DNA from: Clostridiales bacterium
Lineage (GTDB): Bacteria; Bacillota; Clostridia; Christensenellales; Pumilibacteraceae
Assembly: GCA_022508445.1 (NCBI GenBank)
Contig: JAFLVG010000004.1
Span: 55,712-119,711 of the forward strand
Length of the DNA stretch: 64,000 bases
Reading direction: 5' to 3'
The position numbers and the translations under genes are program-made. The first letter of the stretch is position 1. Each line of letters opens with the position of its first letter. Below are positions 27,094 to 63,520 of this stretch, piece after piece. The notes under the pieces are model-generated. The model was not told the DNA's origin. It searched no databases and was given only the letters and a program-made list of their open reading frames with translations.

Positions 27094-27175
27094 TGGTGCG
27101 AGCGACAGGACTTGAACCTGCACGGTTGCCCACCGGATCCTAAGTCCGGCGCGTCTGCCATTTCGCCACGCTCGC
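27094..27175 (-). tRNA. tRNA-Leu (anticodon TAG)
   Basis: Read on the minus strand the gene starts GCGAGCG and ends CGCTCGC-A-CCA, so the acceptor stem pairs 7/7 and the CCA end is encoded. The anticodon stem is CCGGA/TCCGG around the loop CTTAGGA, giving anticodon TAG. A type-II variable arm (GTGGGCAACCGTGC) and the T arm GGTTCAAGTCC are present. It is a Leu tRNA reading CUN codons. Confidence 0.95.
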
Positions 27176-30436: not shown

Positions 30437-30622
30437 TATTTTATATAAACCATTTTTATATTATTTATGGTATAAAATATAATATTAATCCTAAATTTAA
30501 TTGAAGATTAGTCTCAGGTATAAGATACAATTAATTTTAATCTTTTCTGGTAGTTTTGATATAAAAAATGTGTGTTGGCACTAAATATTTTTACAAAAAT
30601 GTAAAAATTTATGTAAAAATAC

Positions 30623-30651
30623 TTGACAGAATCGTAAACTTGTGTTATTGT
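30623..30651 (+). promoter_or_regulatory. Promoter of the Module 1 operon
   Basis: TTGACA (30623-30628), 17 bp spacer, TATTGT (30646-30651), then a 27 nt leader with GGAGC before the ATG at 30679. It is the only clear promoter before eight closely spaced genes. Confidence 0.65.
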
Positions 30652-30678: not shown

Positions 30679-31359
30679 ATGGAGATTAAAAGACAGCTAA
30701 AAAATCTTGATATCAAAATATCTCGTCTTGCGCAGGGCTTGGGAGTTTCTCGTCCCACGCTAGACTCATATATAGAGTGTTACGAAAGTGGGCAACACAT
30801 TCCGAATGAGAGATACCGAAAAATATTCGAGTATCTATTTGCGGAAGATGTGCAATCAACTATTGAATTTGCAAAAAGATTTGATTATGTTAAAAGAGTT
30901 TTTTTGCAGTCTGACAACACGGATACATCTATATCAAAAGAACAAACGATTAGAGATAATATTTCGAATTTTGCTTATGAAGCTGAATTTGGGGAAGGAA
31001 TACTTGAGTTTATTAATTTACTTATCAGCAATAGCAATGTTGATTTGGTAAAAGCAATTTCTGATTATTTCAATTTCGTTAACGGTTTTAGACAGTATAA
31101 CGAAGATATTGAATCCGATAAACATAAAGCACTTTTCTCTAAACTATTCATTTTGTTTGCGGAGTATAATGCTGATAAAATCGGAATGGACGATAACGGC
31201 TATTCTGGATTTGTAGAAAAATGCGATAAGATATTTAGAAAGAAAACGTCTACTTCAACCAGTGCAGAGCTTTTGGAGTATTTACAAAGAAACCTTCCTG
31301 AAGGCTCAAGTATTGACATGGAATACATTAAAAAACTTTTAGATAAAAAGGAGAACTAA
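30679..31359 (+). CDS. HTH protein heading the TerY-like operon
   Basis: A 226 aa protein. Residues 1-55 look like a helix-turn-helix (IKISRLAQGLGVSRPTLDSYIECYESGQ); the rest is helical with no known domain and ends in a charged helix (MEYIKKLLDKKEN). It probably regulates the operon or senses its trigger. I chose the ATG at 30679 because the promoter and GGAGC fit it; a longer reading from 30568 would begin upstream of the promoter. It is 1 nt from the vWA gene. Confidence 0.65.
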   Translation: MEIKRQLKNLDIKISRLAQGLGVSRPTLDSYIECYESGQHIPNERYRKIFEYLFAEDVQSTIEFAKRFDYVKRVFLQSDNTDTSISKEQTIRDNISNFAYEAEFGEGILEFINLLISNSNVDLVKAISDYFNFVNGFRQYNEDIESDKHKALFSKLFILFAEYNADKIGMDDNGYSGFVEKCDKIFRKKTSTSTSAELLEYLQRNLPEGSSIDMEYIKKLLDKKEN

Positions 31360-31360
31360 A

Positions 31361-32065
31361 ATGGATCTTGCAAACTACATGCGAAAAGAAGGGCGTGCTT
31401 TGCCTGTTTTTCTACTCGTCGATATTAGCGGCAGCATGCGTGGAGAAAAAATCGAAACTGTAAATGTTGCTTTGAAAGAGATGATAAATTCTTTTAAGAA
31501 GATAGAAAATCCAATAGGGGTTATTGAACTTTGTATCATTACTTTTGGAGATCAAAAAGCGCAGGTGGTTAAGCCCCTTTCAAAAATCCTTGATACTGAC
31601 CAATTCGAATTTTCTGCAGGCGGAAGCACTCCTATGGGAAAAGCTTTCGATGTCGTATCGGACATGATAGAAGATTACGAGATTGTTTCTCGAAGAGCTT
31701 ATACTCCGACAATTGTGCTTATTAGCGATGGTAACCCTACCGATTTTGACGGATATAGTTCCACGATGAAAGATGATGATATTTATGAATGGGAAGCTTT
31801 AAAGCGCCTTCAATATGGCATAAGAAGCTCAAAGGCCACACGTCTTGCTATGGGCATTGGTGCGGATATGGATAGCCGCATATTAAGAGCTTTTATTAAT
31901 AACGAATCTATTCCGGCAATAAAAGCGCGTGATAACGACACGATTAGCAAATTTTTCAAATGGGTTACAATGTCAATCAGTGTGCGTTCTATAAGCGTTA
32001 ATCCGGATGTTCCTGTTATCGGCGATACAGAAGATCTCTTTGATAAAGGAGAAATAGAGTTTTAA
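31361..32065 (+). CDS. TerY-like von Willebrand factor A (vWA) protein
   Basis: A 234 aa single-domain vWA protein. The metal-ion-dependent adhesion site is complete: DISGS at residues 21-25, the Thr in GGSTPMG and the Asp in VLISDGNPTDF. This is the TerY type of stand-alone cytoplasmic vWA proteins that occur with a kinase and a PP2C phosphatase (the TerY-P triad described by Aravind and colleagues, from memory). AAGGAG precedes the ATG. Its TAA overlaps the kinase ATG (TAATG). Confidence 0.85.
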   Translation: MDLANYMRKEGRALPVFLLVDISGSMRGEKIETVNVALKEMINSFKKIENPIGVIELCIITFGDQKAQVVKPLSKILDTDQFEFSAGGSTPMGKAFDVVSDMIEDYEIVSRRAYTPTIVLISDGNPTDFDGYSSTMKDDDIYEWEALKRLQYGIRSSKATRLAMGIGADMDSRILRAFINNESIPAIKARDNDTISKFFKWVTMSISVRSISVNPDVPVIGDTEDLFDKGEIEF

Positions 32066-33582
32066 TGAAGCGTACCGGAGATAAAGTAATCATTAATGGA
32101 CATGAGTACGAACTTGGTGAGAAATTAGGTGGAGGCATGGAGGGATCGGTCTTTGTCTCTAAAGATAGACCTGAATTTGTGATTAAGCTCATCAATACAG
32201 CTCACATGGGTAACCGAGCGAAGCTGGAATTGCGTGAACACTTAATGTGGCTAAAAAATACAATCGGTGCAAATAATGATTTAAAAAATAAACTTGCCGT
32301 ACCTAAAGCATTAGTTGAGGGCGATGATATTGGATATATTATGTACAGAGCAACTGAACATGATAGTCTTAAATCATACATTACTTTTCCTTCCGATATC
32401 CAACAATTTGAACAATGGTATAAGTTAAATTACAAGCTTAAAAAGCGGTTACAGATTGCATCTTATCTTTTTAACTCACTTGAGCTGATTCATATTTCGG
32501 GATTGCTCTTTACGGATTTATCGCCAAACAATATTATGGTACATAAAAATAAGAATAATCTTGTATTTATTGATACCGATAATATGAGGCGCAAACGAGA
32601 TTCATATTTAAGTGTAGTAGGTACAGACGGATATATGGCTCCCGAAATATATATTGGATTAAACGAGATGAATAAAAAAATCAACTCGGTTGAGTTTGAT
32701 AAATCTGAGTTGCCTAAAAGTGGAAGACTGTCAATCGAAAGTGATGTTTTTTCGGCCGCAGTTATTGTATTTCAGTTACTCACTTTGCAACATCCTTTTA
32801 TTGGTGATGCGGTGGAAGACGGGACTGCAGAAGATGAGACAGCTGCTTTGCGTTGTGAGACAGATTATATTCTTCATAAAAATAAGAGCAATATATCGTC
32901 TACTCCTTTTGTGCAATTATTTGATAAATGTCAAATCGTTACTCCGAAAATAAGAGATTTGTTCTATAGAACTTTTGTGGATGGAAAAAACAATCCTTAT
33001 TTGCGCCCGACAGCTATAGAATTTGCAGAAGCATTTGATGAAGCGCAAGATTTGTTGGCGAGTTGTGAAAAATGCGGTTCGGATTTTATGTATTTGCCGG
33101 AAACAGAAAATCTTTGCTGGGATTGTGAAAATAGAACCGAAAGACGCGTTGTTTTACAAATATTTACAGGATATGAAGAGGCTGACAGAGAAAAGCTTAT
33201 TGCTGACATACTGCGCGACAATCCACTATGTGGTACAAATCAGAGATACCGATTTGTAGAAGCTTGTTCGGTTATTCTTGAAGAGAATAAAGATAAATAT
33301 CTTTACTTAAGACACTTTGAAAAAACGACTAAAAGAAGTCATCCATTTGCAAAAATCGCTTTGGTTGATACTATATCGGGGACTATAAGGTTGCAAGTTG
33401 TAGATACGTCCATCATACCGGCATGCTACTTAATTGATCGTCGTTCGCCTCAAACGAGAAAAAGAATCGATGATTTACGAAGAGCTAATGAGTTTTCAAT
33501 GGAGCAATTTGCTATACTTTTTGACGTTGTTCAATCACGTGTCGGGAAGATTGAAACTATAGGGATGTTGTCAAGAAAATAG
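32065..33582 (+). CDS. Ser/Thr protein kinase-like protein with zinc ribbon
   Basis: A 505 aa protein. Residues ~15-330 form a protein-kinase fold: glycine loop LGGGMEGSVF (21-30), Lys41 in FVIKLI, catalytic-loop equivalent FTDLSPNNIMV with Asp151 and Asn156, metal-loop equivalent FIDTDN in place of DFG, and GTDGYMAPEIY. The HRD and DFG motifs are thus altered but the key Asp/Asn residues remain, so activity is plausible. A zinc ribbon (CEKC...CWDC) follows, then an unassigned C-terminal domain. It is coupled to the vWA gene and lies 2 nt before the phosphatase. Confidence 0.85.
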   Translation: MKRTGDKVIINGHEYELGEKLGGGMEGSVFVSKDRPEFVIKLINTAHMGNRAKLELREHLMWLKNTIGANNDLKNKLAVPKALVEGDDIGYIMYRATEHDSLKSYITFPSDIQQFEQWYKLNYKLKKRLQIASYLFNSLELIHISGLLFTDLSPNNIMVHKNKNNLVFIDTDNMRRKRDSYLSVVGTDGYMAPEIYIGLNEMNKKINSVEFDKSELPKSGRLSIESDVFSAAVIVFQLLTLQHPFIGDAVEDGTAEDETAALRCETDYILHKNKSNISSTPFVQLFDKCQIVTPKIRDLFYRTFVDGKNNPYLRPTAIEFAEAFDEAQDLLASCEKCGSDFMYLPETENLCWDCENRTERRVVLQIFTGYEEADREKLIADILRDNPLCGTNQRYRFVEACSVILEENKDKYLYLRHFEKTTKRSHPFAKIALVDTISGTIRLQVVDTSIIPACYLIDRRSPQTRKRIDDLRRANEFSMEQFAILFDVVQSRVGKIETIGMLSRK

Positions 33583-33584
33583 CT

Positions 33585-34283
33585 ATGAAAAAAATTCTGC
33601 AATCAAAATTGAATAATGTAGATTACACTCTGTTAGGTTGTTCAGTAAAAGGCGCGGAAAAAGAGCTCAATCAAGATGCGTTTATAATTTATGGTGATGA
33701 TTCCCATATTATATGTCTTGTCGCCGATGGATTGGGTTCCGCGATTAATGCTGAGATAGGCTCCAAAGCTATTTGTAAAGTTGCGAAAGAACTAATCCTT
33801 GATGATGGGATTACCGATAATTTTCCAAATGTGCTTAAAAGAAAGTGGGCAGAGGAGCTTGATGTTAATCCGAATTCGTGTGATACAACTTTTAAATTCA
33901 TCGTTGTAGATAAAGATGAAATTGTATTTGGTGGTATCGGTGACGGCTGGATAATCGGCATTGTAGACGGTCGTTTTTTTGAACATAGGAATGCAAACAA
34001 TTTCTCAAATCAAACCGAAAGCATCTTGTCTGTAGGATACGAAGATAGATTTCAAGTCGTTAAGCTTCCGTACAAACAAATACAAATCTTGTCGCTCGCG
34101 ACGGATGGATTTTCGGAAGATATCGAGAGCGCTAAAGTGGAAGAGTTTATCACACAATGTTTGTCTGAGCTCAATAACGGAGAAGAAACTTTTTTAAATC
34201 ATCTTGGGACAATGATGGCAAATTGGCCGATAAAAACAAATCAAGATGATAAGACGATAATAATATGTGGGAGGAACAAATGA
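33585..34283 (+). CDS. PP2C-family protein phosphatase
   Basis: A 232 aa phosphatase, probably cytoplasmic. PP2C motifs in order: NQDAF (residues ~29-33), VADGLGS, GGIGDGWIIG, LATDGFSEDI and the terminal NQDDKTII. All metal-binding aspartates of the minimal PP2C fold appear to be present. It likely reverses the action of the upstream kinase, completing the vWA-kinase-phosphatase triad. Its TGA overlaps the helicase ATG. Confidence 0.88.
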   Translation: MKKILQSKLNNVDYTLLGCSVKGAEKELNQDAFIIYGDDSHIICLVADGLGSAINAEIGSKAICKVAKELILDDGITDNFPNVLKRKWAEELDVNPNSCDTTFKFIVVDKDEIVFGGIGDGWIIGIVDGRFFEHRNANNFSNQTESILSVGYEDRFQVVKLPYKQIQILSLATDGFSEDIESAKVEEFITQCLSELNNGEETFLNHLGTMMANWPIKTNQDDKTIIICGRNK

Positions 34284-37200
34284 ATAAAGCTTTTAATGAA
34301 ATATGTCAGGTTGGAAACTTTTCAATATATGAGAATGTTGATATTGCAAAAATAGAAAAACTGCATAAAAGAGATGGCAGATTATTTGCTGTATTAAATA
34401 CTAAAGAATATGAACTGCACAGTTTAAATGACGATGCCGAGTTGGTGATACGCAATTTCAGCGATTATCCGGATGGGGAGAATGAATCTATTTACGAGTG
34501 CAAGGTAATCAATAATCACCTTGTAGTTCTTTTGTACGTTTTCTCTAATGTCAGACGTATTGAGCTTGAAAGTGAGACAATGCACTTTTATTTAGAAAGA
34601 CTGTTGAAGAATCAATTTGAAAGCGATGGAAAGATTGTAAATGGAGACGAAGTACAATTTCTTCAAGATGAATTTCTGATTAATAAAAGCGTTTTTATAG
34701 TGGAATATCAGGGCGGTAGCGCAATCAGAACATTCCAAATGTATGGAAATGAGTATCGCGCTGATGTAGAAAAAGAACGTCCTGGCATTTTCAGAATAAA
34801 GAAGCTAGTCCACTATAAAGCCAATAACCGTGTAGATCGTATGGTACAAATATATGGTAATGTAAAATTTGTGACATTTGATGATACATTTACGATAAAA
34901 GGGCATGACGCGCCGGTAAGTACAGTAAAGACAAATGAGATATTTAGAGCGTGGCAAGAATTTATAGATTTTGAGGGAAAAATTTTTCATGACGAAGTCG
35001 TCGAGCTTGGATATATTAAATACAAATCGTTCATCGATGATGGTGAGGAAATTGTTTTTGAGTTTGATAATAATGTCGAGAATGAACCGCTGTTCAATGA
35101 CAGGATAAAAGCAGTGAATCAAGAATACGATATAGTGTTCTCGCAAACAGGCCTTAATTTTAATAATATAGAAGAGATAATTAAGCAAAGAGATGAAACT
35201 CGTGGATCATGTATATATTTAGGGCGTGTTCTTAACGAATCATTTGATACTAATAAGTTAGTTTTTCAAAGTCCTTATATTCCTTTTGATATTCCTAATA
35301 CGGGGTATATAATCTTATCAAACAGAAGTATTATGACTGAGGAAAGACGGCGCAAGAGCGTTATGAAGGTCATTGATGGAAAAAGCAATAGTACATCAAA
35401 CATGTTGATGCGCCTAAGCGCGGGCGAAAAAGATGAGCAAACTGGATCGGATATTGAACCTATTACCACAAAAGTGCTTTTGAAAATGTTTGGCCGTACC
35501 AATATTGAATTAACAGGAACATTTCGAGAAGCGATGTCGATTGCTATTAATACGCCGGATATAGCTCTAATACAAGGGCCTCCCGGAACCGGAAAAACAA
35601 CTCTTATAAACGGTATTGTTGCCCGGCTCAGCTCTATGGGTAACAGAAATTATAAAATACTTGTCAGCAGTGAACAACATGAAGCACTGTATAACGTGGT
35701 AGATAAGCTTTCGGGTAATTCGATTCCTCCGTTTGTAACTAGCGACAGATATACTGCGGATGCTAAGTCTGAAAATGAAGAAAAAATGATGAAAAACATC
35801 GAAGAATTTCAGGATCGATTTCTTGAACTATGTAATTCGATATTAAACGAGAACACGCAAAAAGATAGATTTTCCGATGCGTTAACCAAATTGATATTCG
35901 AGATTCAAACTATAAAAGATAGCAATTATTCCCAAATGGTAATATCTGAAAAAATCAAGCAAATATCACAGTCAGCAATGACGATTGGGATATGGAGTGA
36001 AGTAAAAGATTGTATTGAGCAAATTAATGACAAATTGTATACAAGCGGAATAACCGCTGAAGACGAACGCGACGGCATGGAATTAATTAAACGCAAGCTT
36101 GATGCCCAGCGTTTAGATATAGTGACCTTTTATGATGATGACGGAATCTATCAATTAAGCGAACTGCAAAGACTAATTGCATATTACGGTTATAATTATC
36201 TATTGATAGACGATGTGCTTAAAGAAGAGCTTATAAATAAAAGAGACGAAGCAACTTTTTGTAAATTCATTGACTATATAAAAGAAATCACTAATGAAAT
36301 TGTACCACAGCACAATGAGTTTGAACTTGCGATTACAACATATAAAGATTTATTTGATAAATTGTTGAATAATATCCATGCTGCGGCTAAATCCCGCAAA
36401 AAGGACTTTCTCGATATAGTTGAAGCGCTTGCATATAAGATGAACGATGTAGATAATGTTAAAGCGATTATAATGAAATACACCAATGTTATAGGAAGCA
36501 CGTGTGCGCAGGCTGATCGCAGTAAAAATATAGCCGAACTAAACGGTAATAAATATGATTATGTAATAATTGATGAGGCAGCGCGCGCTAATCCGCTCGA
36601 TTTGATGATACCGGTATTAATGGGAATTAAGGTTATTATGGTCGGCGACCAGATGCAGCTACCGCATTATGTAGAAACCGATTATGTCCGTAGATTTAAA
36701 AAAGAGAAAGAAAAATATAGCGCATATGATGAGACATTGCTTACAAAATCCTTGTTTCAAGTACTTTACGATAGCTTGGAAAAATCGTGGAAAGAAGGAA
36801 AACTTAAGTTTCGTCGGCATATACGTATCCAAGAGCAACACCGTATGCATCCTGTGATAGGTAAATTCATAAGTGAACAATTTTACGAGCAGAAAGTTAT
36901 CAAAGCAGATGGGAATGAGATTATAGAGGGTAGAATAGAAAACGGGGCAAAAACAAGAGTAAATATTAACGATTATAACGTTTTTGACGGAAAAAATGTT
37001 GTTTGGGTAGATGTTCCAATAACTGCCGGAATGGAAGAGCGCGTCTCGTCAAAAATAAGTCGTCATGCCGAGGCGGACAAAGTTATCGACATTATACAGG
37101 AAATCGTGCGAAAAAATCCGCAAAAGTCGTACAAGATTGGTGTTATGTCTTTTTATAAAGGCCAAGTAGAACTAATAAAAGCTCTTCTCTCTGATAAATT

Positions 37201-37465
37201 TCCGGACGATATATTAAAAAAGATAGAATGTAATACGGTAGACTCTTATCAGGGTAAAGAATTTGATATAGTGCTTCTTTCCACTACAAGAAGTAATAGG
37301 GAAGTGGAAATAGAAAAAAGTCTTGGTTTTATTCATTATTCAAAAAGTAGAATTAATGTTGCATTGTCCAGAGCAAAAAAACTACTTATTGTTATAGGTG
37401 ATTCTGAGACCATCGGTCGCAACAGTATTTTCGACAACTTTATTAAGTACACGAAAAAAAATTAA
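34280..37465 (+). CDS. Superfamily 1 (Dna2/Upf1-like) helicase
   Basis: A 1061 aa protein. The N-terminal ~400 residues are unassigned. Helicase motifs follow: Walker A GPPGTGKTTLING (about 434-446), Walker B VIIDEAARANP (about 765), motif III VGDQMQLPH, motif IV QEQHRMHP, motif V DSYQGKEFDIVLLSTTRS and motif VI NVALSRAKKLLIVIGD. A long insertion (about residues 490-740), largely helical, separates motifs I and II. The ATG at 34280 has GGGAGG 6 nt upstream and overlaps the phosphatase stop; a GTG-free longer reading from 34265 has no such site. It is probably the DNA- or RNA-remodelling engine of the module. Confidence 0.88.
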   Translation: MNKAFNEICQVGNFSIYENVDIAKIEKLHKRDGRLFAVLNTKEYELHSLNDDAELVIRNFSDYPDGENESIYECKVINNHLVVLLYVFSNVRRIELESETMHFYLERLLKNQFESDGKIVNGDEVQFLQDEFLINKSVFIVEYQGGSAIRTFQMYGNEYRADVEKERPGIFRIKKLVHYKANNRVDRMVQIYGNVKFVTFDDTFTIKGHDAPVSTVKTNEIFRAWQEFIDFEGKIFHDEVVELGYIKYKSFIDDGEEIVFEFDNNVENEPLFNDRIKAVNQEYDIVFSQTGLNFNNIEEIIKQRDETRGSCIYLGRVLNESFDTNKLVFQSPYIPFDIPNTGYIILSNRSIMTEERRRKSVMKVIDGKSNSTSNMLMRLSAGEKDEQTGSDIEPITTKVLLKMFGRTNIELTGTFREAMSIAINTPDIALIQGPPGTGKTTLINGIVARLSSMGNRNYKILVSSEQHEALYNVVDKLSGNSIPPFVTSDRYTADAKSENEEKMMKNIEEFQDRFLELCNSILNENTQKDRFSDALTKLIFEIQTIKDSNYSQMVISEKIKQISQSAMTIGIWSEVKDCIEQINDKLYTSGITAEDERDGMELIKRKLDAQRLDIVTFYDDDGIYQLSELQRLIAYYGYNYLLIDDVLKEELINKRDEATFCKFIDYIKEITNEIVPQHNEFELAITTYKDLFDKLLNNIHAAAKSRKKDFLDIVEALAYKMNDVDNVKAIIMKYTNVIGSTCAQADRSKNIAELNGNKYDYVIIDEAARANPLDLMIPVLMGIKVIMVGDQMQLPHYVETDYVRRFKKEKEKYSAYDETLLTKSLFQVLYDSLEKSWKEGKLKFRRHIRIQEQHRMHPVIGKFISEQFYEQKVIKADGNEIIEGRIENGAKTRVNINDYNVFDGKNVVWVDVPITAGMEERVSSKISRHAEADKVIDIIQEIVRKNPQKSYKIGVMSFYKGQVELIKALLSDKFPDDILKKIECNTVDSYQGKEFDIVLLSTTRSNREVEIEKSLGFIHYSKSRINVALSRAKKLLIVIGDSETIGRNSIFDNFIKYTKKN

Positions 37466-37480
37466 ACTAAGGAGATTATT

Positions 37481-38950
37481 ATGCAAGGTAAAAGAAATTA
37501 TATAGGCAGCATAATTTGGCCGTTCATAAGATACGATGTGTTGATGCCGAAACAGGTTAAAACTGATTTGTTTGAATGGTTATATTTGTCTTTGGTAGTG
37601 CATCAAAACGAGCAACGTGGTTTGGATAAAAAAAGCTACACTAAAGAAGTAAAAGATGATGTTCGTCACATTATCAAGCAAAGATTTTATTCTTTATTGG
37701 ATGACACTATTATTGATAACATTATATCAACGGCAGAAAAAGATTTTACCGTCAGAGATGAATCGCAAAGCAGCAATTGTGAATGGTTGGTAGATGAAAC
37801 ATTCGGATTCCTCGATACATATGAGGACCTATTTAGTTCGCAAGTCGGGGTTCAGAAAGTTTTTCAAGACGGAATTTGTGGCGATGTGGTGCCTTACTTT
37901 GATGACGATTTGTTTGTTCAAGATGCCAAAAAGAGCGGAGATTGTGAATTACAATCTCTTGTTCGCGATAGGCCAAGTCAAGAGCAAATAAAAAATGCTT
38001 ATTTATTATATAGCCGATTAAATATGGTAGCAAGCAATCAAGACGATACATTAGCTGAGCCGGATGAGTTTTATGATGAAGATGCTGAGGTTGATTTTGT
38101 ACCGGAGATGTCAAATCCCACAGACATGGTTACAAAAGTTGGCAACAAAGACATGACCAACTACAGTACGCACTTTATAGATAATTCCAGATGTGAATTT
38201 AGACTTGAAATCGCTGTGTATACAGATGGTGAAACATTGTACATTGATACGCCGTTCAATCCGGATGTAACATTTAAATGGATAAATAAACGTCTTCCAA
38301 AGGCTAGAAGTGTTTGCGCGGAGTTAGATGAGTATCTAAAAAGTCTCGAAGCAACACACATTGTTACAACTACTGTAGATCCAAGTGCAGCATTGCAGTT
38401 TGTTTATCGCAAGGGCGTAGCTGACCAAATGACAAAGTGTGGCGATATTTATAGGCTGATAGAACATCTTCCCGACCAATATAATGATTTAAAAAAATTG
38501 TTGATTGATATTGATAAACAATTTACGTCGAAACATAAGAGTTATTTCAACGCTTTAGGTACATATCTGGAATGTTTGATATCTCCATTTGTGGACCGTA
38601 CGGATATTGCTACAAGACAGTATTATGACTATAATCAGTATTGTACAACTATCAGCTATATTTGCAAGCAATTAGGAGTAAATGATAGGCCTTTTCTCAG
38701 CGAAAATGTTTTTAAAAATTGGCGAAAGGGATGGGGACATCTAAAAGCTGATTTAGCAAGCATATTCCTCGCAAACGCTAAAATGAAAAGCAATACTAAA
38801 TTATACCCGTCTTTTGTACAGGATATATTTAGTTTATATGACAGGCGAAACGAAGGAAGTCACTATAATCCGGGTATGACATACAACTACGATGAAAATG
38901 ACATCATCAAATTATTCAATGTAACCAGAGTTCTTATTGAACTTATATAA
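37481..38950 (+). CDS. Unknown protein with C-terminal HEPN-like RNxxxH motif
   Basis: A 489 aa protein with no recognised N-terminal domain; residues ~90-230 are acidic. The last ~40 residues read LYDRRNEGSHYNPGMTYNYDENDIIKLFNVTRVLIELI, where RNEGSH (about 455-460) fits the R-N-x3-H signature near the C-terminal helix of HEPN ribonucleases. The preceding ~150 residues are helical, which suits a HEPN bundle. If real, it is a candidate RNase effector. The gene sits between the helicase and the McrB-like NTPase, 15 and 17 nt from its neighbours, with AAGGAG sites. Alternative: a structural subunit with a chance motif. Confidence 0.55.
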   Translation: MQGKRNYIGSIIWPFIRYDVLMPKQVKTDLFEWLYLSLVVHQNEQRGLDKKSYTKEVKDDVRHIIKQRFYSLLDDTIIDNIISTAEKDFTVRDESQSSNCEWLVDETFGFLDTYEDLFSSQVGVQKVFQDGICGDVVPYFDDDLFVQDAKKSGDCELQSLVRDRPSQEQIKNAYLLYSRLNMVASNQDDTLAEPDEFYDEDAEVDFVPEMSNPTDMVTKVGNKDMTNYSTHFIDNSRCEFRLEIAVYTDGETLYIDTPFNPDVTFKWINKRLPKARSVCAELDEYLKSLEATHIVTTTVDPSAALQFVYRKGVADQMTKCGDIYRLIEHLPDQYNDLKKLLIDIDKQFTSKHKSYFNALGTYLECLISPFVDRTDIATRQYYDYNQYCTTISYICKQLGVNDRPFLSENVFKNWRKGWGHLKADLASIFLANAKMKSNTKLYPSFVQDIFSLYDRRNEGSHYNPGMTYNYDENDIIKLFNVTRVLIELI

Positions 38951-38967
38951 ACTAAGGAGATATACAA

Positions 38968-41181
38968 ATGGCAAAGAATAAGAATAAAGCACGTAACAAT
39001 AATCGTTCTCAGCCTCAGCCGCAACCTAAACCGCAACCTTCGCTTGTAATAAAGCCGGCTGAAGAGTTATCATCTGAAGAAAGAGAGGAGTTAAGGGCTA
39101 AAGGCGAAGAAGAAAGGGCTCAACTTATTAAAGAAGGAGAATCCGAAAAAGCACGTCTCATTCAAGAAGGCGAAGACGAAAAAGAGAAGATTATTAAGCG
39201 TGCTGAAAAAGAAGCGCAAAAGTCGGTTGACGAAGTTCAACGGCAATATATAGAAGAAATTCGTGAAGAGGCAATCGAAGAAGCCGAAGAAGAAAAAGAA
39301 CGTATTCTTGCAGAGGCAACAGCAATTAGAGAAGAGGTTGAGACCAAGCAGGAAGAATTAGAGTCCAAATTAGGCGATTTAGATAAGCAATATGAAGATT
39401 TGGCTATCAAAATCGAGCAGTACACTAAAGATTTGGCAGAACTTGAAAGCAAAAAGAGATCTTACAAGGTCGATGCGTTGCAAGAAGTTGCAGAGCAGAT
39501 AGGAGCATTTAATGCTACTATCGTTTTGCTTGAAGAGGAAAAAAACAATCTCGAAAAAAAGTTAAAATGTAAAGAGCAGGAACTTGCTGCATGTAATGAT
39601 GATAAAGAGCTGTATTTAAGTGAGCTTGGAAAAAGTGATGTCCGAAGACAAAAACTAATGGAGCTCGAACACCAAATTATTTTGCTGAAAGCCAATAATG
39701 ATACATTGGACAAGTTATATAAAGGGTGTCTAGCTGAAAATACAAAGTACAAAACTCAAATATTAAGCTTTGGCGATAATCCCACGGGTCTTCTTGCCGA
39801 ACGGAATCAACTTGAAGAGCAGAATCAGTTGCTTCAAGACCGGCTTGCTAATGTACCTGGAGCGGACGAAATTAAGAGATTGAGGAAAGTCGATGAGGCA
39901 TATGAAAAGGTCATAGCTGAATTGGCTCGATTAAAAACCGAAAAAATCGAGTCAGATAAAAAGTTGGCTGAGCTGGATATATATAGTAATGATCTTGAAA
40001 ATTCAAGACGATTTATCAGAGTGCTTGAATTACAACGATTAGAATTGCAAAGAGAATTGGATAGGATTCAAGAGAACTATAATAATCGTCAAGATAGAGT
40101 TTTTGCATCATTAAGTGCTATTGATGACGAAGAAATAGTGGGCAATTATTCGCGTACGGGGAGAACATTGTGGCAAATTTGTGAAGATTTTAGAAATTAT
40201 TTAGCATCGCGCACAAACAATCCTCTATATTATTCTCGTGAAAGCATTAGAACATTTTTTGCCGGACTTGCCGCATCGAGAATTATAATATTGCAAGGTA
40301 TGAGCGGAACCGGTAAATCAAGCCTCCCCAAAGCGTTTGAGGATTACATGAAGTCTGTCACTGAAAGGATTGAGGTGCAATCGTCGTGGAAAGATAGAAA
40401 CGATTTACTTGGATTTTATAATGATTTTGAAAAGCGCTATAAAGAGACGAAATTTTTGGAAGCATTATATAGAGCAACGAGGGATAGTAATAATATTCAC
40501 CTTATTATGCTTGACGAAATGAATCTTTCGCGTATTGAATATTACTTTGCCGATTTCTTATCTGTTTTAGAGGAAGAAAAACAGGAGAAATGGAAAATCA
40601 GCTTAGTGTCGCGTGATGTTCGAGGTGTGATGCCGGAATATATTGTCGATGGAGAATTACGTATCGGAGAAAACACTTGGTTTATAGGTACGGCAAACAA
40701 AGACGATTCAACATTTACAATAACCGATAAGGTGTATGATAGGGCAATAGTTCTCAATTTTGAAGAACGAGCAGAAGAATTTGATGGAAGATATACCGAG
40801 CCGCGTGGGGTGAGTTATGCTGAGCTTAAAGTGCTCTTGTCCGATGCTGTGCAACTAACTCCTGATATAAAAAATCAAATCAAACATCTTGTGGGTTGGT
40901 TGGATGAGAGAATGAAAACATACTTTGAAATAAGTTTCGGCAACCGTATAAGCAAGCAAATCAATATGTTTGTGCCGGCATACGTAAAATGTGGTGGAAA
41001 CGTTGAGGAAGCTGTTGATATTATATTTTCAACTAAAGTACTAAGAAAGCTTCAAGGTATGTATGATGAATCAACTAAGAACGGATTAAATGAATTCTTA
41101 TCCGAGTTAAGAAAAGACAATAAAGGTATTAAGCTGCAAAATACGCAGTCCACTATTCGAAAAATGATCGACCGGATTTAA
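38968..41181 (+). CDS. Coiled-coil McrB-like AAA+ NTPase
   Basis: A 737 aa protein. After a basic, Gln/Pro-rich start (residues 1-25) comes a very long charged coiled coil (about 35-395), then a AAA+ domain: Walker A LQGMSGTGKSS (about 443-453), Walker B LIMLDEMNLSRIEYYFADF, sensor-1 GTANKDDSTF and KVYDRAIVLNFEERAE. This order is that of the McrB GTPase/NTPase group, whose members drive a McrC-type partner. The coiled coil replaces the DNA-binding N-terminal domain of classical McrB. The partner gene starts 1 nt downstream. Confidence 0.8.
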   Translation: MAKNKNKARNNNRSQPQPQPKPQPSLVIKPAEELSSEEREELRAKGEEERAQLIKEGESEKARLIQEGEDEKEKIIKRAEKEAQKSVDEVQRQYIEEIREEAIEEAEEEKERILAEATAIREEVETKQEELESKLGDLDKQYEDLAIKIEQYTKDLAELESKKRSYKVDALQEVAEQIGAFNATIVLLEEEKNNLEKKLKCKEQELAACNDDKELYLSELGKSDVRRQKLMELEHQIILLKANNDTLDKLYKGCLAENTKYKTQILSFGDNPTGLLAERNQLEEQNQLLQDRLANVPGADEIKRLRKVDEAYEKVIAELARLKTEKIESDKKLAELDIYSNDLENSRRFIRVLELQRLELQRELDRIQENYNNRQDRVFASLSAIDDEEIVGNYSRTGRTLWQICEDFRNYLASRTNNPLYYSRESIRTFFAGLAASRIIILQGMSGTGKSSLPKAFEDYMKSVTERIEVQSSWKDRNDLLGFYNDFEKRYKETKFLEALYRATRDSNNIHLIMLDEMNLSRIEYYFADFLSVLEEEKQEKWKISLVSRDVRGVMPEYIVDGELRIGENTWFIGTANKDDSTFTITDKVYDRAIVLNFEERAEEFDGRYTEPRGVSYAELKVLLSDAVQLTPDIKNQIKHLVGWLDERMKTYFEISFGNRISKQINMFVPAYVKCGGNVEEAVDIIFSTKVLRKLQGMYDESTKNGLNEFLSELRKDNKGIKLQNTQSTIRKMIDRI

Positions 41182-41182
41182 T

Positions 41183-42973
41183 ATGCGATTAGAAGAAGAG
41201 AAGTTTTTGTTTAATAGAATATTTGATGATTTTTATGCCCACTTTCCTAATGGGGCAAGCGTTAGCGATCTTATAAACGCATTTACTGATAAAAAGATTA
41301 TTTTACAGTTTGGTGAAAAAGAGGGAACAAAAGTTATAGATGAAGAGTGCGTGGAAGAGATTAAAAAAGTTGTACCATTTATTCAGCGGATTGTTGAAAA
41401 ACCGCGATCATTTATAAAGTCTATTGAGGAAAAGGTGCTGGTAGCGACGGCAAAACGTATTAATAGTAATGCTATTATGCATCTTGGCCGCGATAGTAAT
41501 GATTGGTATGCACGCACTTTCTTAACTGTAAAGCCTAAAAATATAGTTTCGGATATTAATGAAGAGACGATTGATTTATACGAGAATCGATTTGTCAAAA
41601 CATTGATAGATAGAATTATTCAGTATGTAGTTGCTCGGCGTATTAAGCTTGAAAATTTATTTGGACGCGTGGAAGATGAGAATATTCGTGCTGTCTTAGA
41701 TAGTACAAGAAATAGTTTTGTTCGTATACAAGCAAATAGCGATATTCTCATCAAAGCTCTATCAAAAGATGGAAATGTTGGAGCATCTGAAGGATATTTA
41801 TCGCATATACGCGAGGATCTAGAAGAGGTTAGGCAACTTGAAAGAAAAATAATTAATTTACGTTATTCTGATTTTTACAATAAACTGAGAAAATGTCGCA
41901 AGGTGAGCAACCCTATAGCTAAAACAAATATTATTATGTTCGATTCAAATTACAACCGATGCTATAAATTATGGGAATATTTAAACTCGGAACATCAAGA
42001 AGAGGATTACTCGCTGGAAGAATACGAGGAAAAGCAGTACGCTTCTTATTACTATGCTTATGTCGTATTTAATGTAGTTGCTTCTTTGCATAACAGTGGA
42101 TACAATGAGCAAAACAATCCTACAATTGATTATGACAGCAAAGATATGCTTACCATTTCCAACGATATGGTTTGGTCAAAAAAAGACACAATAGTTAATA
42201 TGCGTCTTGAGCCGAGTAAGAGTAAAATAGTATTTTCATTATTGCTAGACGAAAGAAAAAACAAATGGGATGTGTTTGAGATTTACACCGATTATACAAA
42301 CTTTGAAGGCAAGAGTAGATCACAAATAGAGGATATAACCACGGAGATTGTCAATAACCTTGTTAAAAGAGAAAAAAGAGATATCGTGTCAAGTAAATAT
42401 TGTTTTGTTTCTCTTGATATTAACGCTTGTAGTGCGTCAAATGATTTCGGTGAGACGTTATATAGACGATTATTCAATATCGGGGATAATTATTCTAAAG
42501 AAGAAGTGGATTTGGCAAGTAAGGCCTATTATAAAACAGGAATACAAATTTTATCTCCTTTAGATATAAGATATAATTTTTTACATATTCAACGTATTAT
42601 CAATTCGCATATCTTACGCAATAAAGATTTTACCACTATGCCTTCGGTTTGTCCGCTATGTGGTTCAGATAAAGTGCGCTCGTTTCTGGATCACATTGAT
42701 TGTTATGAATGTGGGCATAGGATATCTACAACAAAATGCTCGAATTGTGGCGAGCAACGCTTGTTGTGGGTAAAATATACAGACGACGCTGCGTTAAAGA
42801 AAAAGGAAATCACGGATATCGTCAAGGAGCGTCCGTATTATTATCAATTAATGAAATATGAAACGATTATGGGACAGTATGCCATATCATCATTTAGGCT
42901 GGAAGAAGAAATTACCGGTTGGAAATTGAAAAGTATATGTCCTAAATGTGGAGTGCTGTTAGGCGACACATAA
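41183..42973 (+). CDS. DUF2357/McrC-like protein with C-terminal zinc ribbons
   Basis: A 596 aa protein directly after the McrB-like gene. Its middle part has the DUF2357-type pattern ENRFVKTLIDRIIQYVV, as seen in McrC-like partners. I see no clear PD-(D/E)XK signature. Instead the C-terminus has CxxC zinc ribbons: CPLCGSDK...CYECGHR, TKCSNCGEQ and ICPKCGVLL. It could be a McrC relative whose nuclease role was lost or moved to another subunit. It is the last gene of the operon. Confidence 0.65.
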   Translation: MRLEEEKFLFNRIFDDFYAHFPNGASVSDLINAFTDKKIILQFGEKEGTKVIDEECVEEIKKVVPFIQRIVEKPRSFIKSIEEKVLVATAKRINSNAIMHLGRDSNDWYARTFLTVKPKNIVSDINEETIDLYENRFVKTLIDRIIQYVVARRIKLENLFGRVEDENIRAVLDSTRNSFVRIQANSDILIKALSKDGNVGASEGYLSHIREDLEEVRQLERKIINLRYSDFYNKLRKCRKVSNPIAKTNIIMFDSNYNRCYKLWEYLNSEHQEEDYSLEEYEEKQYASYYYAYVVFNVVASLHNSGYNEQNNPTIDYDSKDMLTISNDMVWSKKDTIVNMRLEPSKSKIVFSLLLDERKNKWDVFEIYTDYTNFEGKSRSQIEDITTEIVNNLVKREKRDIVSSKYCFVSLDINACSASNDFGETLYRRLFNIGDNYSKEEVDLASKAYYKTGIQILSPLDIRYNFLHIQRIINSHILRNKDFTTMPSVCPLCGSDKVRSFLDHIDCYECGHRISTTKCSNCGEQRLLWVKYTDDAALKKKEITDIVKERPYYYQLMKYETIMGQYAISSFRLEEEITGWKLKSICPKCGVLLGDT

Positions 42974-43179: not shown

Positions 43180-44221
43180 ATGTTGGAGTCTTTGAAAAAT
43201 GCATTAAGACAGGCGGAAAGTATTGATATACTTACTGCATTTTTCTATTTTTCCGGGTTCAATGCTCTTGCAGAAGAACTTAAAGATAAAAAAATAAGAA
43301 TTCTGGTAGGAAACACAATTGATCCATCTGCGATTGCGAATCTGTGCGTTGCTGTAAAAAAACAATCCGGATGAAGAATTAAACTCATATTCTGTGCGTG
43401 GTTATAATAATCTAAATAATTCTCAAAAAACGAATCACTATAAAAGCAGTTTTATTGATATGTTCAATAAATCATATTTATCGGAAGAATTTGATTCTAC
43501 TGAAAATCAAGAGATTTTCAAAATGTTTTTATCAAAAATTAAAGATGTGTCTTTAGAAATTCGTTTAACGGCCAGGCAAGATCATAGCAAGTTTTATCTA
43601 ATAAGAAACAAGTATGAATATTCTTGTTTTGGCGATCAAAAAGGTGTCGTGTTCATGGTGTCATCTAATTTTACATATAATGGACTTCTTGGACAGGGCG
43701 AAATGAATGAGCGATTTAGCGATAATACTAAATTTGAAGAATATGAGGTTAAGTTTGAAAGTCTTTGGAACGACAGCAAGTCTATTGATATTAGTGTAAA
43801 AGACGGAAACAACGATTTTGAAACGGAAATGAAAAAGAAACTTTGGATTTTTGCCAAGCCCTCGCCGTATCATATTTACGTGCGGATTTTATACGAGCTT
43901 TATAATTCAATCGATCAAGGTAATGTTACTACACCATCAGAAATTACAAGTGGTAAATTTGCAAACTTTAAATATCAAATTGATGCTATAAAGTATGGCG
44001 TGGATTGTATTAATAAGAACAATGGCGTTATTATTGCCGATGTAGTTGGTCTTGGTAAATCCATAATTGCTTCTGCAATAGCATATAATTTAGATTTGCG
44101 TAAGACCGTTGTTATTTCGCCGCCTCATTTGGTAGATCAATGGAATGACTATCAGCAAGATTTCGGACTCCGCGGAGTCAGAGTAAGTAATTTAACACAA
44201 TATATAGTGTTTCTACACTAA
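43180..44221 (+). pseudogene. Decayed PLD-nuclease/SNF2-type helicase
   Basis: Two consecutive reading frames form the N-terminal third of a helicase with a phospholipase-D-like nuclease domain. Frame 1 (43180-43374) reads SLKNALRQAESIDILTAFFYFSGFNALAEELKDKK. Frame 2 (from about 43366; first Met at 43394) has LTARQDHSKFYLI (HxK motif of PLD nucleases), then VVGLGKSIIASAIA (Walker A) and SPPHLVDQWNDY (motif Ia). The shift is in a run of seven A at about 43362. The protein stops at 44221, just after motif Ia; the rest of the helicase is missing. It is not functional as an ATPase. Confidence 0.8.
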
Positions 44222-44361: not shown

Positions 44362-44618
44362 CAATGTCCGTAAAAAACCTTGTCCTCACTTAGTCCGTCA
44401 TTCAAAATCAATGTCGAATTTTACAATTAATACAATAACCAATTTAACTGTTTGGTGAAAGATGGTTGACAAAGAATGTGGCAGATGTTATATTAATACT
44501 AACTCTACTATTACTTAATCATTATAATTTTAATTAAGTAAAAATATAATTTTTGGGGAGATTGTTTGTAAAGTTACATGGTAAAATGGTATTACAAATA
44601 ACAATTCAGGAGTATGAA

Positions 44619-45017
44619 ATGTTTTATAAAGTAAAAGCCAAATGTGGCCATGTGGGCAGAAATAATTACATAGAAAAGACTTTTTATGTGACAGCACATT
44701 CAGGAAAGGAGGCAGCACGAAAGGTGCGCTACTTGCCAAGAGTCAAACACGATCGTAAAGATGCGATTCTCAGTGTTGAACAGATATCGCGAACTGAGTT
44801 TGTTGAGGGTAATGCAGCGAACAGTATTGATACATATTTCAAGGTAACAAATTCGAGCGAACAACGCTTGTTAAAGGCTGTAGATCCGGGAGAAATACGT
44901 CCGGAGCCTCATAGTAAAAAATATAAAAAGAAGAGAGATGTAAGTTATATCATGAAACGAATGAAAATTCTACAAAAACAGTACGATAAAATGATGTCGG
45001 AGATTGTTTATGGATAA
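44619..45017 (+). CDS. Small basic protein, unknown function
   Basis: A 132 aa basic protein (MFYKVKAKCGHVGRNNYIEKTFYVTAHS...). It has Cys/His pairs near the N-terminus that could bind a metal and a Lys-rich C-terminal third (HSKKYKKKRDVSYIMKRMKIL). I chose the ATG at 44619 because AGGAG lies 6 nt upstream. It overlaps the next XRE gene. Unrecognised; it may bind nucleic acid. Confidence 0.6.
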   Translation: MFYKVKAKCGHVGRNNYIEKTFYVTAHSGKEAARKVRYLPRVKHDRKDAILSVEQISRTEFVEGNAANSIDTYFKVTNSSEQRLLKAVDPGEIRPEPHSKKYKKKRDVSYIMKRMKILQKQYDKMMSEIVYG

Positions 45018-46524
45018 GCGCAGAGTGGGGCAATTTTTAAAAACTCTAAGGCTACAAAAAGGGAAAAAGCAATTTCAGGTAGCAATGGATTTATCCGCAT
45101 ACGGTATAGATGTTTCGGATAAGACTGTAGCTAAGTGGGAGAAAGGTAATTTTCCTGATATGGATAAGTTGGCTATTATAGCCGATTATTACGGAGTAAA
45201 AGTTTCCGCTATTTTGAACGGTGAGCCTTATACTCCGCAAAAATTCGATGAAAAATATTTTATAGTAAATGACGAATGGATGCAACATTTTCCGGCGGAC
45301 GCATTGTATCAAACTCGTGTTGAACAAGAAAGGTTAGTTAAGACAAGAGTAAAAGATTTGTTATTGGAGCTTATAGAAAAGAAATCGTTGACAGAAACGC
45401 AAAACGATGAACTGAATTTTTTGCTTGCCAACTTTTACAGTGTAAGTGACTATGCGAAAGAAATAAATAATGAACTCGATTGCACAGGTAGTAAACAAGT
45501 AAAATTATTGCGGCAAGAGATATATCGGGAAATTTGCTCTATGCACGATTGCTCAGTTGATGAAATTTATTGGGAAATAAAAAAGCTTTATAATTATAAT
45601 AAACGAGCTACTTTTAGAAAAAATGTATGTGGGTATGAGGCAAATGTATCAGCTACAGAAAATATATTACTAGATTTGGAGAATTGGGAAAAGGATTTAT
45701 TGCTCGCTCAAATCCAAACTCAAAATATTGCCGGTTTCTACGATAAACTTACATACTTTCGACAATACGGTGTTGATTATGATGAGGAGCGTATAACCAA
45801 AGAGGGCATAAAGCTGTTAATTAAATGCGGCGCTCAATTAAATCCGGCGTTATTGGGTTATAAGTTATTTCAATATGATTACTTTTCCATTATGGATAGA
45901 ATGGAAACGTTGCATGCTGCTGTAGAAGCTAAATTGCTCGTTTCGGCGTACAATGAAGAAAAACAAGCTGTTGAGTTATATTGGGTAGAAAATAATACAA
46001 AGAATAGACTGATTGATTTATATTACATGATAAACTGTAGTCGAAATAAGGATAAGAAAATATCGTTTGATGAACTATACAATCTTTTTATTTCCAACGA
46101 CACCTTACCTGAAAGTTTACTATTAGAAAGATATAATGAAGGTGAACGGTCAACTTTGAGTCGGAAGGAGCAATTACTGCAAGCAGAATGGATGTTTGTT
46201 GGGGAGATTGCAAAGTGGAATGAATGTAAAGAGCGTGAAAGTAAATATAAAGATTATGAGCGTGAGCTACATGAATTAGAAAAACGGTGGATTGCCGGTG
46301 AAGCGATTGGTGAAATTGAGTACACAGAGTGGATTGGAGAAGAAGACGGTGTTCTAACTGAAAGTGATATTATGATGAGATTATGCGAAATGTCGTATGA
46401 CGAATATCTTGAAAGTAGAAATGCAGAGTTAACAACAGAATTGCTTGCAGAAATAGATACACTCTCGTTAAATGAAATACGGCAAAAATATTTTCCTGTG
46501 GAGGAAAGATATGAAGAATTATAA
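45010..46524 (+). CDS. Large XRE-type HTH protein 1
   Basis: A 504 aa protein. Residues 3-65 are an XRE/Cro helix-turn-helix (VGQFLKTLRLQKGKKQFQVAMDLSAYGIDVSDKTVAKWEKGNFPDMDKLAIIADYYGVKVSAILNGE). The remaining ~435 residues are helical and of unknown fold, with charged stretches near the end (KERESKYKDYERELHELEKRW). GGAG precedes the ATG, which overlaps the previous gene. The next gene encodes a second protein of the same plan, so they may act as a pair. Confidence 0.7.
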   Translation: MDKRRVGQFLKTLRLQKGKKQFQVAMDLSAYGIDVSDKTVAKWEKGNFPDMDKLAIIADYYGVKVSAILNGEPYTPQKFDEKYFIVNDEWMQHFPADALYQTRVEQERLVKTRVKDLLLELIEKKSLTETQNDELNFLLANFYSVSDYAKEINNELDCTGSKQVKLLRQEIYREICSMHDCSVDEIYWEIKKLYNYNKRATFRKNVCGYEANVSATENILLDLENWEKDLLLAQIQTQNIAGFYDKLTYFRQYGVDYDEERITKEGIKLLIKCGAQLNPALLGYKLFQYDYFSIMDRMETLHAAVEAKLLVSAYNEEKQAVELYWVENNTKNRLIDLYYMINCSRNKDKKISFDELYNLFISNDTLPESLLLERYNEGERSTLSRKEQLLQAEWMFVGEIAKWNECKERESKYKDYERELHELEKRWIAGEAIGEIEYTEWIGEEDGVLTESDIMMRLCEMSYDEYLESRNAELTTELLAEIDTLSLNEIRQKYFPVEERYEEL

Positions 46525-47602
46525 GTTGGGTAACTTTATTTGCGAATTACGTGAAGCTGCCGGAATGGACCAGAAGACATTAGCGTCATTATTGGGCGTT
46601 TCAGCATCGGCGATTAGTCAATGTGAAAACGGCGGCGGAATTAAAACAGAAAAACTGTTTCAATTATCGGAATTGTTTGGTGTCACATTAGATGAATTGT
46701 TAAGTGGTAAGCGTGCCGAGCAGCCTATTGCAGAGCGACTCGATGATTTGTATAACATAAATAAAAATGAACTGCAAAAAGCCGTTGATAACGGTGATTA
46801 TGAGCTAATAGTGAAAATATTTCGACGCATAAAAATAGTGCGCGAACGATTTGAGGAGCTGATTTATAAACGTATTTTTGCCAAAATAACGGCAGATGAA
46901 AATATAGAGTTGGACTACCTTAAACGCTATTATAATTTAAATCTTTACTCTAGCCAATGCTTTACTACTACTGTTGTGTTTTTTAACGATAATCAGAGAT
47001 ATGATTATATTCAAGAAACATTATTAAATGCCTTTAGTAGTGATAGGCGAAATTTAATAGAGTGGGAATTGCATAAAATATTCTCGTTAAACATTAATTT
47101 ACATCTACAGGAAATATTGGATATAATCGAGAGTGATGAAAGAATTGAAACAGAGCAAGATAGATTATACTGTTTTACTACTGTGTTTCGTGCATTGCCG
47201 ACATTGTCGAAAGATCTATTCTTTTCGGAAATTGTATATGTAAGTGGCAGTTTCAATATGAAGCTACCGGTTATAAATGTCTTGTTGGAGCATGGAGCCA
47301 AACTTCTGTATCCTATAGTTGTTAAGAATATGACACATATCGATAAAGATATTGTGGCTTCATTTGAAGGAAATGTGGAATACGATCGAAAGCTGTTCGA
47401 CATTGCAGCGATTTATCAAAATAATTATATAAACAGTTTTAGTTTTAACGATTTTGTAAGGCTTACGTATGACGAATATCAAGCATGTATCTATGAAGAG
47501 GGAATGCAAGAGTTAGTACGATTGGCAAAATTATGGCGTAGCGATAAAATCGCATACTGGGACACATTCAAAACGGTCAAATTATACCGCAAACAATTTT
47601 AA
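46511..47602 (+). CDS. Large XRE-type HTH protein 2
   Basis: A 363 aa protein. Residues 5-65 are an XRE domain (LGNFICELREAAGMDQKTLASLLGVSASAISQCENGGGIKTEKLFQLSELFGVTLDELLSGK); the rest is a helical domain of unknown function. GAGGA precedes the ATG at 46511, which overlaps the stop of the previous XRE gene by 14 nt. The tight coupling of two large HTH proteins is unusual for simple repressors. Confidence 0.7.
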   Translation: MKNYKLGNFICELREAAGMDQKTLASLLGVSASAISQCENGGGIKTEKLFQLSELFGVTLDELLSGKRAEQPIAERLDDLYNINKNELQKAVDNGDYELIVKIFRRIKIVRERFEELIYKRIFAKITADENIELDYLKRYYNLNLYSSQCFTTTVVFFNDNQRYDYIQETLLNAFSSDRRNLIEWELHKIFSLNINLHLQEILDIIESDERIETEQDRLYCFTTVFRALPTLSKDLFFSEIVYVSGSFNMKLPVINVLLEHGAKLLYPIVVKNMTHIDKDIVASFEGNVEYDRKLFDIAAIYQNNYINSFSFNDFVRLTYDEYQACIYEEGMQELVRLAKLWRSDKIAYWDTFKTVKLYRKQF

Positions 47603-63339: not shown

Positions 63340-63520
63340 TAGTATCTCCACATGTTTAAATTTATTGTAAAACTAGCTATTAAGATAACTTTTGTTTATT
63401 TAATATTATTTTAATCTAAAACAAAAATTGTGTCAACTTCTTGTTATGTAATATTAATTGTAGTGAATTGTGTGTAATTTTTTTTTGGGGTGGGGGGGGG
63501 TACGATTTTTTAAGGCCGTT

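Follow-up and report, generated by a model that had tools for sequence, protein, structure and literature searches.

Coiled-coil nuclease tandem (CoCoNuT) systems have been classified by GTPase phylogeny and gene context in Bell et al. (2024, eLife, PMC11090510). The published Type II set comprises the TerY-P triad (a VWA protein, a zinc-ribbon kinase and a PP2C phosphatase), which is frequent in Type II and not part of its core, together with a UPF1-like helicase (CnuH), a HEPN effector (CnuE), a coiled-coil protein with an NxD GTPase motif (CnuB) and a DUF2357/zinc-ribbon protein (CnuC). Type II systems are held in that article to act on RNA, and a phosphorylation switch of the kind the triad could provide was proposed there, citing Anantharaman et al. 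2012. Here we describe an operon at positions 30679-42973 of a 64,000-nucleotide stretch of a Clostridiales bacterium genome (contig JAFLVG010000004.1; the whole stretch is referred to as the window), which is probably a Type II CoCoNuT with TerY-P from a deep Clostridia/Spirochaetota lineage, under the control of an operon-specific helix-turn-helix (HTH) autorepressor.

An operon with the Type II CoCoNuT gene set

Genes 2 to 8 of the operon correspond to the published Type II CoCoNuT plus TerY-P set, and the kinship with Type II is held with high confidence. A first-pass annotation had presented the locus as a possible new defence system and had known of no described system with exactly this set. 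Genes 2 to 8 are described in Bell et al. 2024 (PMC11090510), where the set was in print well before the present finding, and the listing of the full set in an existing catalogue counts against a new system. The accompanying idea, a phosphorylation triad linked to an McrBC-like machine, was right, and a switch of this kind is proposed in the literature; the part that failed was the novelty.

The eight intact genes are co-directional on the forward strand, each with a start and a stop and no internal stop. Their common direction, already given in the annotation, and the expected catalytic motifs are borne out by the open reading frames (ORFs), Pfam and the motif check, and the gene identities that the annotation gave were supported by Pfam, motifs and relatives. 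Gene 1 (30679..31359, 226 amino acids) encodes an HTH domain and a helical C-terminal region and is the probable operon repressor, as judged from HTH_3, a structural model and orthologues. The triad consists of a TerY-like VWA protein (31361..32065; VWA E 6e-10; motifs DISGS and GGSTPM), a Ser/Thr kinase with a C-terminal zinc ribbon (32065..33582; Pkinase E 4e-16; motifs DLSPNN, which holds D151, DTDN and CEKC/CWDC) and a PP2C phosphatase (33585..34283; PP2C_2 E 2e-24; DG at 48, GDG at 119, TDG at 173 and DD at 221). The overlap with TerY-P in PADLOC that had been suggested was found, as the VWA protein matches TerY (E 8e-4). No Ter genes (TerC/D etc.) appeared in the Pfam scans of the genes scanned, and no search by Ter family name was made. 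TerY-P islands were reportedly treated by Anantharaman et al. 2012.

The core begins with CnuH (34265..37465), a UPF1-like superfamily 1 helicase in which a long insertion follows Walker A and the N-terminal domains are rich in beta structure (AAA_11 E 4e-27, AAA_12 E 6e-41; GPPGTGKT with Walker A at 438, DEAA at 770), assigned from Pfam, motifs, PADLOC, a profile search and a model. CnuE (37481..38950) is an effector with a C-terminal HEPN domain (RNEGSH, residues 456-461), CnuB (38968..41181) joins a coiled coil to an McrB-like GTPase with an NxD motif (GMSGTGKS, LDEMN and TANKDD, the last within GTANKDDSTF), as also indicated by PADLOC and trees, and CnuC (41183..42973) features DUF2357 (E 3e-10), a degenerate nuclease region, zinc ribbons with four CxxC motifs and a short N-terminus. 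Pfam matches below the cut-off were obtained for HTH_3 (E 0.006), for HEPN_Apea (E 0.004) and, on the McrB-like protein, for AAA_5 (E 0.003); the HTH, HEPN and McrB-like assignments rest on motifs, models and relatives. Junctions measure 1 nucleotide between HTH and VWA, -1 (an overlap) between VWA and kinase, 2 between kinase and PP2C, -19 between PP2C and helicase, 15 between helicase and HEPN, 17 between HEPN and McrB, and 1 between McrB and McrC. The overlaps or gaps of 1-17 nucleotides reported earlier hence hold for every junction except that of PP2C and helicase, where 19 nucleotides overlap.

The same eight genes occur in the same order in two relatives, L052 (a Clostridiales metagenome-assembled genome, MAG) and L053 (a Clostridia MAG). 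Between the window and L052 the eight genes show proportions of nonsynonymous differences (pN) of 0.13-0.23 and of synonymous differences (pS) of 0.77-0.92, with pS saturated so that no ratio is given. The conserved order and the low pN against pS mark the eight-gene set as more than a chance assembly.

Distribution of the gene set

A tblastn search of plasmids with CnuH and CnuB led to five annotated regions. All seven genes from VWA to CnuC lie together on four of these plasmids, from Pseudanabaena, Deinococcus, Polaromonas and Rhodoferax (Cyanobacteria, Deinococcus and Betaproteobacteria), and the fifth, from Nostoc, gave no separate PP2C match; CnuE itself had no tblastn match on plasmids. 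A genome collection was further scanned with a CnuH alignment, which yielded 360 confirmed relatives from which 80 loci were kept, and profiles built from the window and plasmid proteins were run over the ORFs of these loci. As the loci were picked by helicase similarity, the rates are biased to, and valid for, this context only. Of the 66 loci with at least 4.5 kb upstream, 48 have the complete triad, the single genes being found in 56 (VWA), 63 (kinase) and 55 (PP2C), and among the 73 loci with at least 6.5 kb downstream, CnuE was found in 68, CnuB in 73 and CnuC in 55. Both flanks were available for 63 loci, with all seven genes in 36 and all but CnuC in 6 more. A usual absence of the last three genes from loci with the triad, which the first-pass annotation had named as refuting, was not borne out among these 80 loci.

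The order HTH-VWA-kinase-PP2C is confined to the window, L052 and L053; elsewhere, where all three triad genes occur, PP2C precedes the kinase. Twelve loci (L048, L062, L082, L084, L090, L107, L109, L127, L130 and others), from Nostocales, Actinomycetota and some other groups, carry VWA-kinase-CnuH with no PP2C profile match, and PP2C may there be lost or too diverged.

McrB/McrC relatives without the triad exist in the same class, where CnuB relatives were found in 37/391 genomes. Twenty stretches were fetched from these matches, one of them from the own genome; they hold neither the triad nor helicase and HEPN genes, and their GTPase is mostly accompanied by a DUF2357-like partner. A membrane helix near the GTPase N-terminus was present in 25/25 ORFs of these stretches versus 0/82 CoCoNuT CnuB proteins. 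These class-wide GTPases look like the CoCoPALM group of PMC11090510, and their assignment to Type I CoCoNuT was dropped on account of the membrane helix. In the own genome the second NxD GTPase (G000:C1:60613-61656, locus L027) has the N-terminal membrane helix and is CoCoPALM-like, with no CnuC blastp match in the stretch, and in L035, L039, L042, L043 and L046 two membrane-anchored NxD GTPases flank one DUF2357-type gene in a tandem arrangement.

Gene 1 and its promoter sites

The start of gene 1 was taken as the ATG at 30679, and the ORF listing gives a longer frame from 30568. The later start was preferred because a promoter-like site (TTGACA-17-TATTGT with TG before the -10, 30623..30651, forward strand, pattern scan) lies inside the extension and because the L052 orthologue starts at the same residue. 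The single promoter proposed earlier for the operon is plausible from its position at 30623 and from elements shared with two relatives, although the pattern count gives no proof of it, as 49 promoter-like sites were found in the region versus 54 expected in shuffles, which is not above chance.

Two operator-like sites were identified on the forward strand upstream of gene 1. The first, TTTACAAAAATGTAAA (30590..30605), is a perfect TTTACA-N4-TGTAAA palindrome, and the second, TTGACAGAATCGTAAA (30623..30638), overlaps the -35 hexamer, with comparable -35 sites in L052 (6368) and L053 (6245). The TTTACA-N4-TGTAAA pattern, taken from the window alone, was matched within 150 bp upstream of gene 1 at 11/12 in L052 and 12/12 in L053; these scores were reached by 9/2000 and 0/2000 shuffles and by 0/304 and 0/303 other tiles of the same loci, respectively. 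In 64 loci without gene 1, many of them less AT-rich, the best match upstream of the first core gene was at most 9/12. A looser pattern, TTNACANNNNYGTAAA, has two occurrences each in the window and L052 and a single one in L053, and every one of them lies at the promoter.

The gene 1 product was modelled with a mean predicted local distance difference test (pLDDT) score of 56, where helices at 3-54 fell in blocks of pLDDT 71-86 and the remainder was poor. Orthologues were found in L052 (61%) and L053 (45%), that is in 2/80 loci, and searches at E 1e-6 of 398 genomes from the phylum and 391 from the class returned gene 1 from the own genome only. Viral contigs held no relative of gene 1 or of CnuH. 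Besides gene 1 itself, 74 family genomes gave four weak partial matches (E 7e-7 to 3e-4), of which two fall on the HTH and the others on residues 97-167 and 113-167. No full-length relative beyond L052 and L053 was found in the sets searched.

Gene 1 is read, with moderate confidence, as an operon-specific autorepressor that occupies the slot of RtcR-like activators, repression being suggested because a site sits on the -35 in all three loci. Two points weigh against this reading. The looser pattern was framed after all three loci had been seen, and it occurs at 7 places in the own genome versus 3 matches of the backward control; and an HTH protein may activate instead of repress. Gene 1 could accordingly be an activator or antidote-like regulator of the same Type II CoCoNuT, with the sites upstream of and on the -35 serving activation, as HTH proteins work both ways. 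The RtcR-like regulators of other CoCoNuTs are activators (PMC11090510), and sigma-54 regulators lie upstream on plasmids and make up 13 of 78 upstream ORFs. The overlap of a site with the -35 hexamer in each of the three loci fits occlusion better, however, and we regard activation as unlikely.

The 78 upstream ORFs scanned (76 of the 98 listed and two of L054) included, besides the 13 sigma-54 activators, nine DUF4258 and four Card1 endonuclease genes, in line with PMC11090510. An upstream HTH regulator of the gene 1 kind does not appear in the main text of PMC11090510, whose three HTH passages concern CnuB fusions and RtcR, and the HTH gene, to which the first-pass annotation had drawn no special attention, is the part of the operon without a published description in that main text. 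It seems to be one more solution in the CoCoNuT regulatory slot. Other occupants of the slot were noted in Treponema locus L066, where a TM1812-like CARF-type protein is encoded at 4974-6521 (NCBIfam E 3e-10, below the cut-off, TM1812 having been tested in L066 only), and as sigma-70-like matches upstream of CoCoNuT, weak in L066 and at 6098-7441 in L054 (Sigma70_r2, E 6.6e-6). The TM1812-like gene and the sigma-70-like matches are possible further CoCoNuT regulators.

It is conceivable, as a speculative extension that we rate as improbable, that the neighbouring kinase phosphorylates the helical C-terminal region of gene 1 and PP2C resets it, so that TerY-P, a switch found ahead of many CoCoNuT operons, would act on transcription in this lineage and control derepression of an RNA-cutting machine. 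If that were true, a single small protein and two DNA sites would suffice for a direct test of the TerY-P target. Should gene 1 prove to be a repressor, it would be a concrete candidate for the TerY-P phosphorylation target, and Type II CoCoNuTs would have at least two unrelated control strategies. The compact operon, with its simple promoter, single small regulator and candidate sites, may also be easier to switch in a laboratory host than RtcR superoperons.

The core proteins and their proposed working

In a profile search of the PDB, UPF1 was the best solved relative of CnuH (E 1e-44). The published CnuH N-terminus consists of an SmpB-like OB fold, a RelE-like domain and a stalked OB fold (PMC11090510). 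In the window, the N-terminal model (mean pLDDT 82) comprises a beta barrel-like part at 14-110, a helix-helix-beta part at 112-203 and a helix-beta-helix part at 223-371, which, going by elements alone, would be the right kinds for the OB/RelE-like/OB arrangement. CnuE carries one conserved HEPN motif of the RxxxxH form, RNEGSH in the window, RNNGSH in L052 and RNDVSH in L053. CnuB matched PADLOC PDC-M26A (1e-40) and over residues 101-376, the coiled-coil stretch, SMC_prok_B (E 0.0014), with no transmembrane-like helix and no PDB match at E 0.001 in a profile search.

CnuC has 596 amino acids with DUF2357 and zinc ribbons, and no Hsp70 match was found by Pfam and a further scan. Only 74 residues precede its KPR anchor; across 59 CnuC proteins this stretch was below 100 residues in nine, four of which form the window clade, and at least 114 in the other 50. 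Type II CnuC is said to retain an inactivated PD-(D/E)xK fold (PMC11090510), and inspection of the nuclease region by eye gave no conserved D...(D/E)xK, not even among the four members of the window clade. The CnuC profile gave only weak PDB matches to ribosomal and RNA-polymerase zinc ribbons (best L37Ae, E 2.5e-4).

In the working that we propose, gene 1 would probably keep expression of the operon low by binding the TTTACA-N4-TGTAAA sites, one of which lies over the -35 box. Infection, or the RNA or translation stress that comes with it, would lift repression and/or tip the VWA-kinase-PP2C switch, which would then phosphorylate one or another of the machine's components. Slightly more likely than not, rings of the CnuB GTPase would, together with CnuC and the UPF1-like CnuH, recognise aberrant, viral or translated RNA and travel along it. 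The CnuE HEPN domain, to judge by its motif, would cut RNA and thereby halt the phage and, under a persisting attack, the cell as well. RNA targeting is held with moderate confidence, in agreement with the published Type II view, because UPF1 is the best solved CnuH relative and no intact nuclease motif other than HEPN was seen. Targeting of DNA, as by a Type IV restriction system of the McrBC kind, would be suggested by the McrB/McrC ancestry, and the CnuH family also acts on single-stranded DNA. The lack, by eye, of a conserved D...(D/E)xK in the nuclease region, the HEPN motif as the only recognisable nuclease motif and the UPF1 relationship of CnuH stand against it, and we judge DNA targeting improbable, somewhat more so than an activating gene 1.

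Phylogenetic placement

The window, L052, L053 and L054 (a Spirochaetaceae MAG) form one CnuB clade (support 100/99), and the same four group together in the CnuH tree (support 100). A reduced CnuB tree was built without the III-A-like rows and the long branches, 24 of the 96 rows in all: 19 have no CnuC match, one of these being a long branch as well, and the other five were dropped for their long branches. Rooted on the CoCoPALM-like rows, it separated 48 Type II rows from 24 CoCoPALM-like rows at 100/99, with the window clade as one of three deep lines. In the kinase tree the window, L052 and L053 group with L055, L056 and L111, which are other Bacillota CoCoNuT operons. We conclude from these comparisons that the window operon is probably a deep-branching Type II CoCoNuT, placed there by CnuB, CnuH and gene context, with the PMC11090510 references outside these trees.

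Several observations weigh against the reading of the operon as a Type II CoCoNuT with TerY-P under gene 1. In the CnuB tree of all 96 rows, support for joining the window clade to the main Type II clade is only 87/81, L055, L056 and L111 (Bacillota, labelled Type II) fall with CoCoPALM-like rows at 86/68, and Type II is not a single clade. The Type II label of the tree rows is our own, given from CnuC and context, and the PMC11090510 reference proteins are not among the rows. An Ig-like N-terminal domain is a described trait of Type II CnuC, if not a stated classification criterion (PMC11090510), and CnuC of the window clade has no room for it because the N-terminus before the KPR anchor is so short. 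CnuE of L054 has no RxxxxH match, and the HEPN_Apea match of the window CnuE lies under the Pfam cut-off (E 0.004). Neither the triad nor gene 1 is indispensable, since L054 has the core without both. No experiment on a Type II CoCoNuT was found in the literature searched.

An alternative is a new, undescribed defence system, assembled independently in this lineage from the triad, the helicase/HEPN pair and the McrBC pair. In its favour, the clade branches deeply in the CnuB tree and lies apart from the main Type II group, the order of kinase and phosphatase is exchanged, gene 1 is an addition and CnuC is short. The same seven genes nevertheless occur together in many phyla, and the module looks inherited as a whole because the window kinase and CnuH group with those of the Bacillota CoCoNuT operons L055, L056 and L111. 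With the full set published and found in many phyla, a new system was rejected as very unlikely.

Least probable of all, and likewise rejected, is a Type III-A CoCoNuT, which shares TerY-P and CnuH/CnuE and has CnuC fused to Hsp70-like and HEAT domains and two HEPN domains in CnuE (PMC11090510), whereas the window has a 596-residue CnuC of DUF2357 and zinc ribbons with no Hsp70 match, a single conserved HEPN motif and a CnuB well removed from the 18 rows that were taken for III-A, which have no CnuC match.

Genomic setting

The operon is accessory, because CnuH was found in 1/20 genus genomes, its own, while the DNA just upstream of the operon is present, at least in part, in 16/20. The adjoining NAD synthetase gene is present in 10/20, and no empty insertion site emerged from six fetched genus genomes, in which no other queried window gene was found near the NAD synthetase gene. 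A tRNA-Leu gene (27094-27175, reverse strand), which lies upstream of the operon at a distance of about 3.4 kb, may mark an old integration site.

A Mza-type operon and other defence-like genes follow downstream, and the operon lies in a defence island. A 275-amino-acid ORF at 43394-44221 combines a PLD domain with no more than the beginning of an SNF2/ResIII helicase; it resembles PbeA models of about 680 residues and looks cut short. The small protein encoded at 44553-45017, downstream of the CoCoNuT, has by eye a look-alike at 4443-4964 of L066, upstream of the Treponema CoCoNuT, and two adjoining HTH_3 proteins of 506 and 376 amino acids (45004-47602) are encoded between the CoCoNuT and the Mza-type operon. 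A 907-amino-acid protein (60628-63351, reverse strand) matches the candidate defence model PDC-S53 over its full length and is found in 2/20 genus genomes, its own included.

Comparison with known systems

CnuH of the window matches the Mokosh helicase MkoA of PADLOC (E 3e-103). A partner gene of the Mokosh system was not found among the genes of the operon.

CoCoPALM (PMC11090510) shares an NxD GTPase about 43-47% identical to that of the window and a DUF2357-type partner, and differs in that its GTPase has an N-terminal membrane helix and that the 20 stretches hold none of the triad, helicase and HEPN genes. The TerY-P islands described in PMC4978471 (Helicobacter pylori NCGC-3) likewise combine TerY, kinase and PP2C with helicase, SMC-McrB and DUF2357 genes, but with WXG100/FtsK and an LHH nuclease there instead of a lone HEPN effector. 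In the RtcR-regulated CoCoNuT superoperons of Polaromonas and Rhodoferax plasmids (PMC11090510), a regulator gene also lies directly upstream of the triad; it encodes a sigma-54 activator with CARF there and a small HTH protein in the window.

Closest is Type II CoCoNuT, with which the window shares the VWA protein, the zinc-ribbon kinase, PP2C, the CnuH insertion after Walker A, the CnuE RxxxxH motif, the CnuB NxD motif and CnuC, with the modules in the same order. Type II is already catalogued, and what differs is local, namely a deep branch, a kinase that precedes the phosphatase, a CnuC too short for the Ig-like N-terminal domain, and an HTH gene with its own promoter sites as the first cistron.

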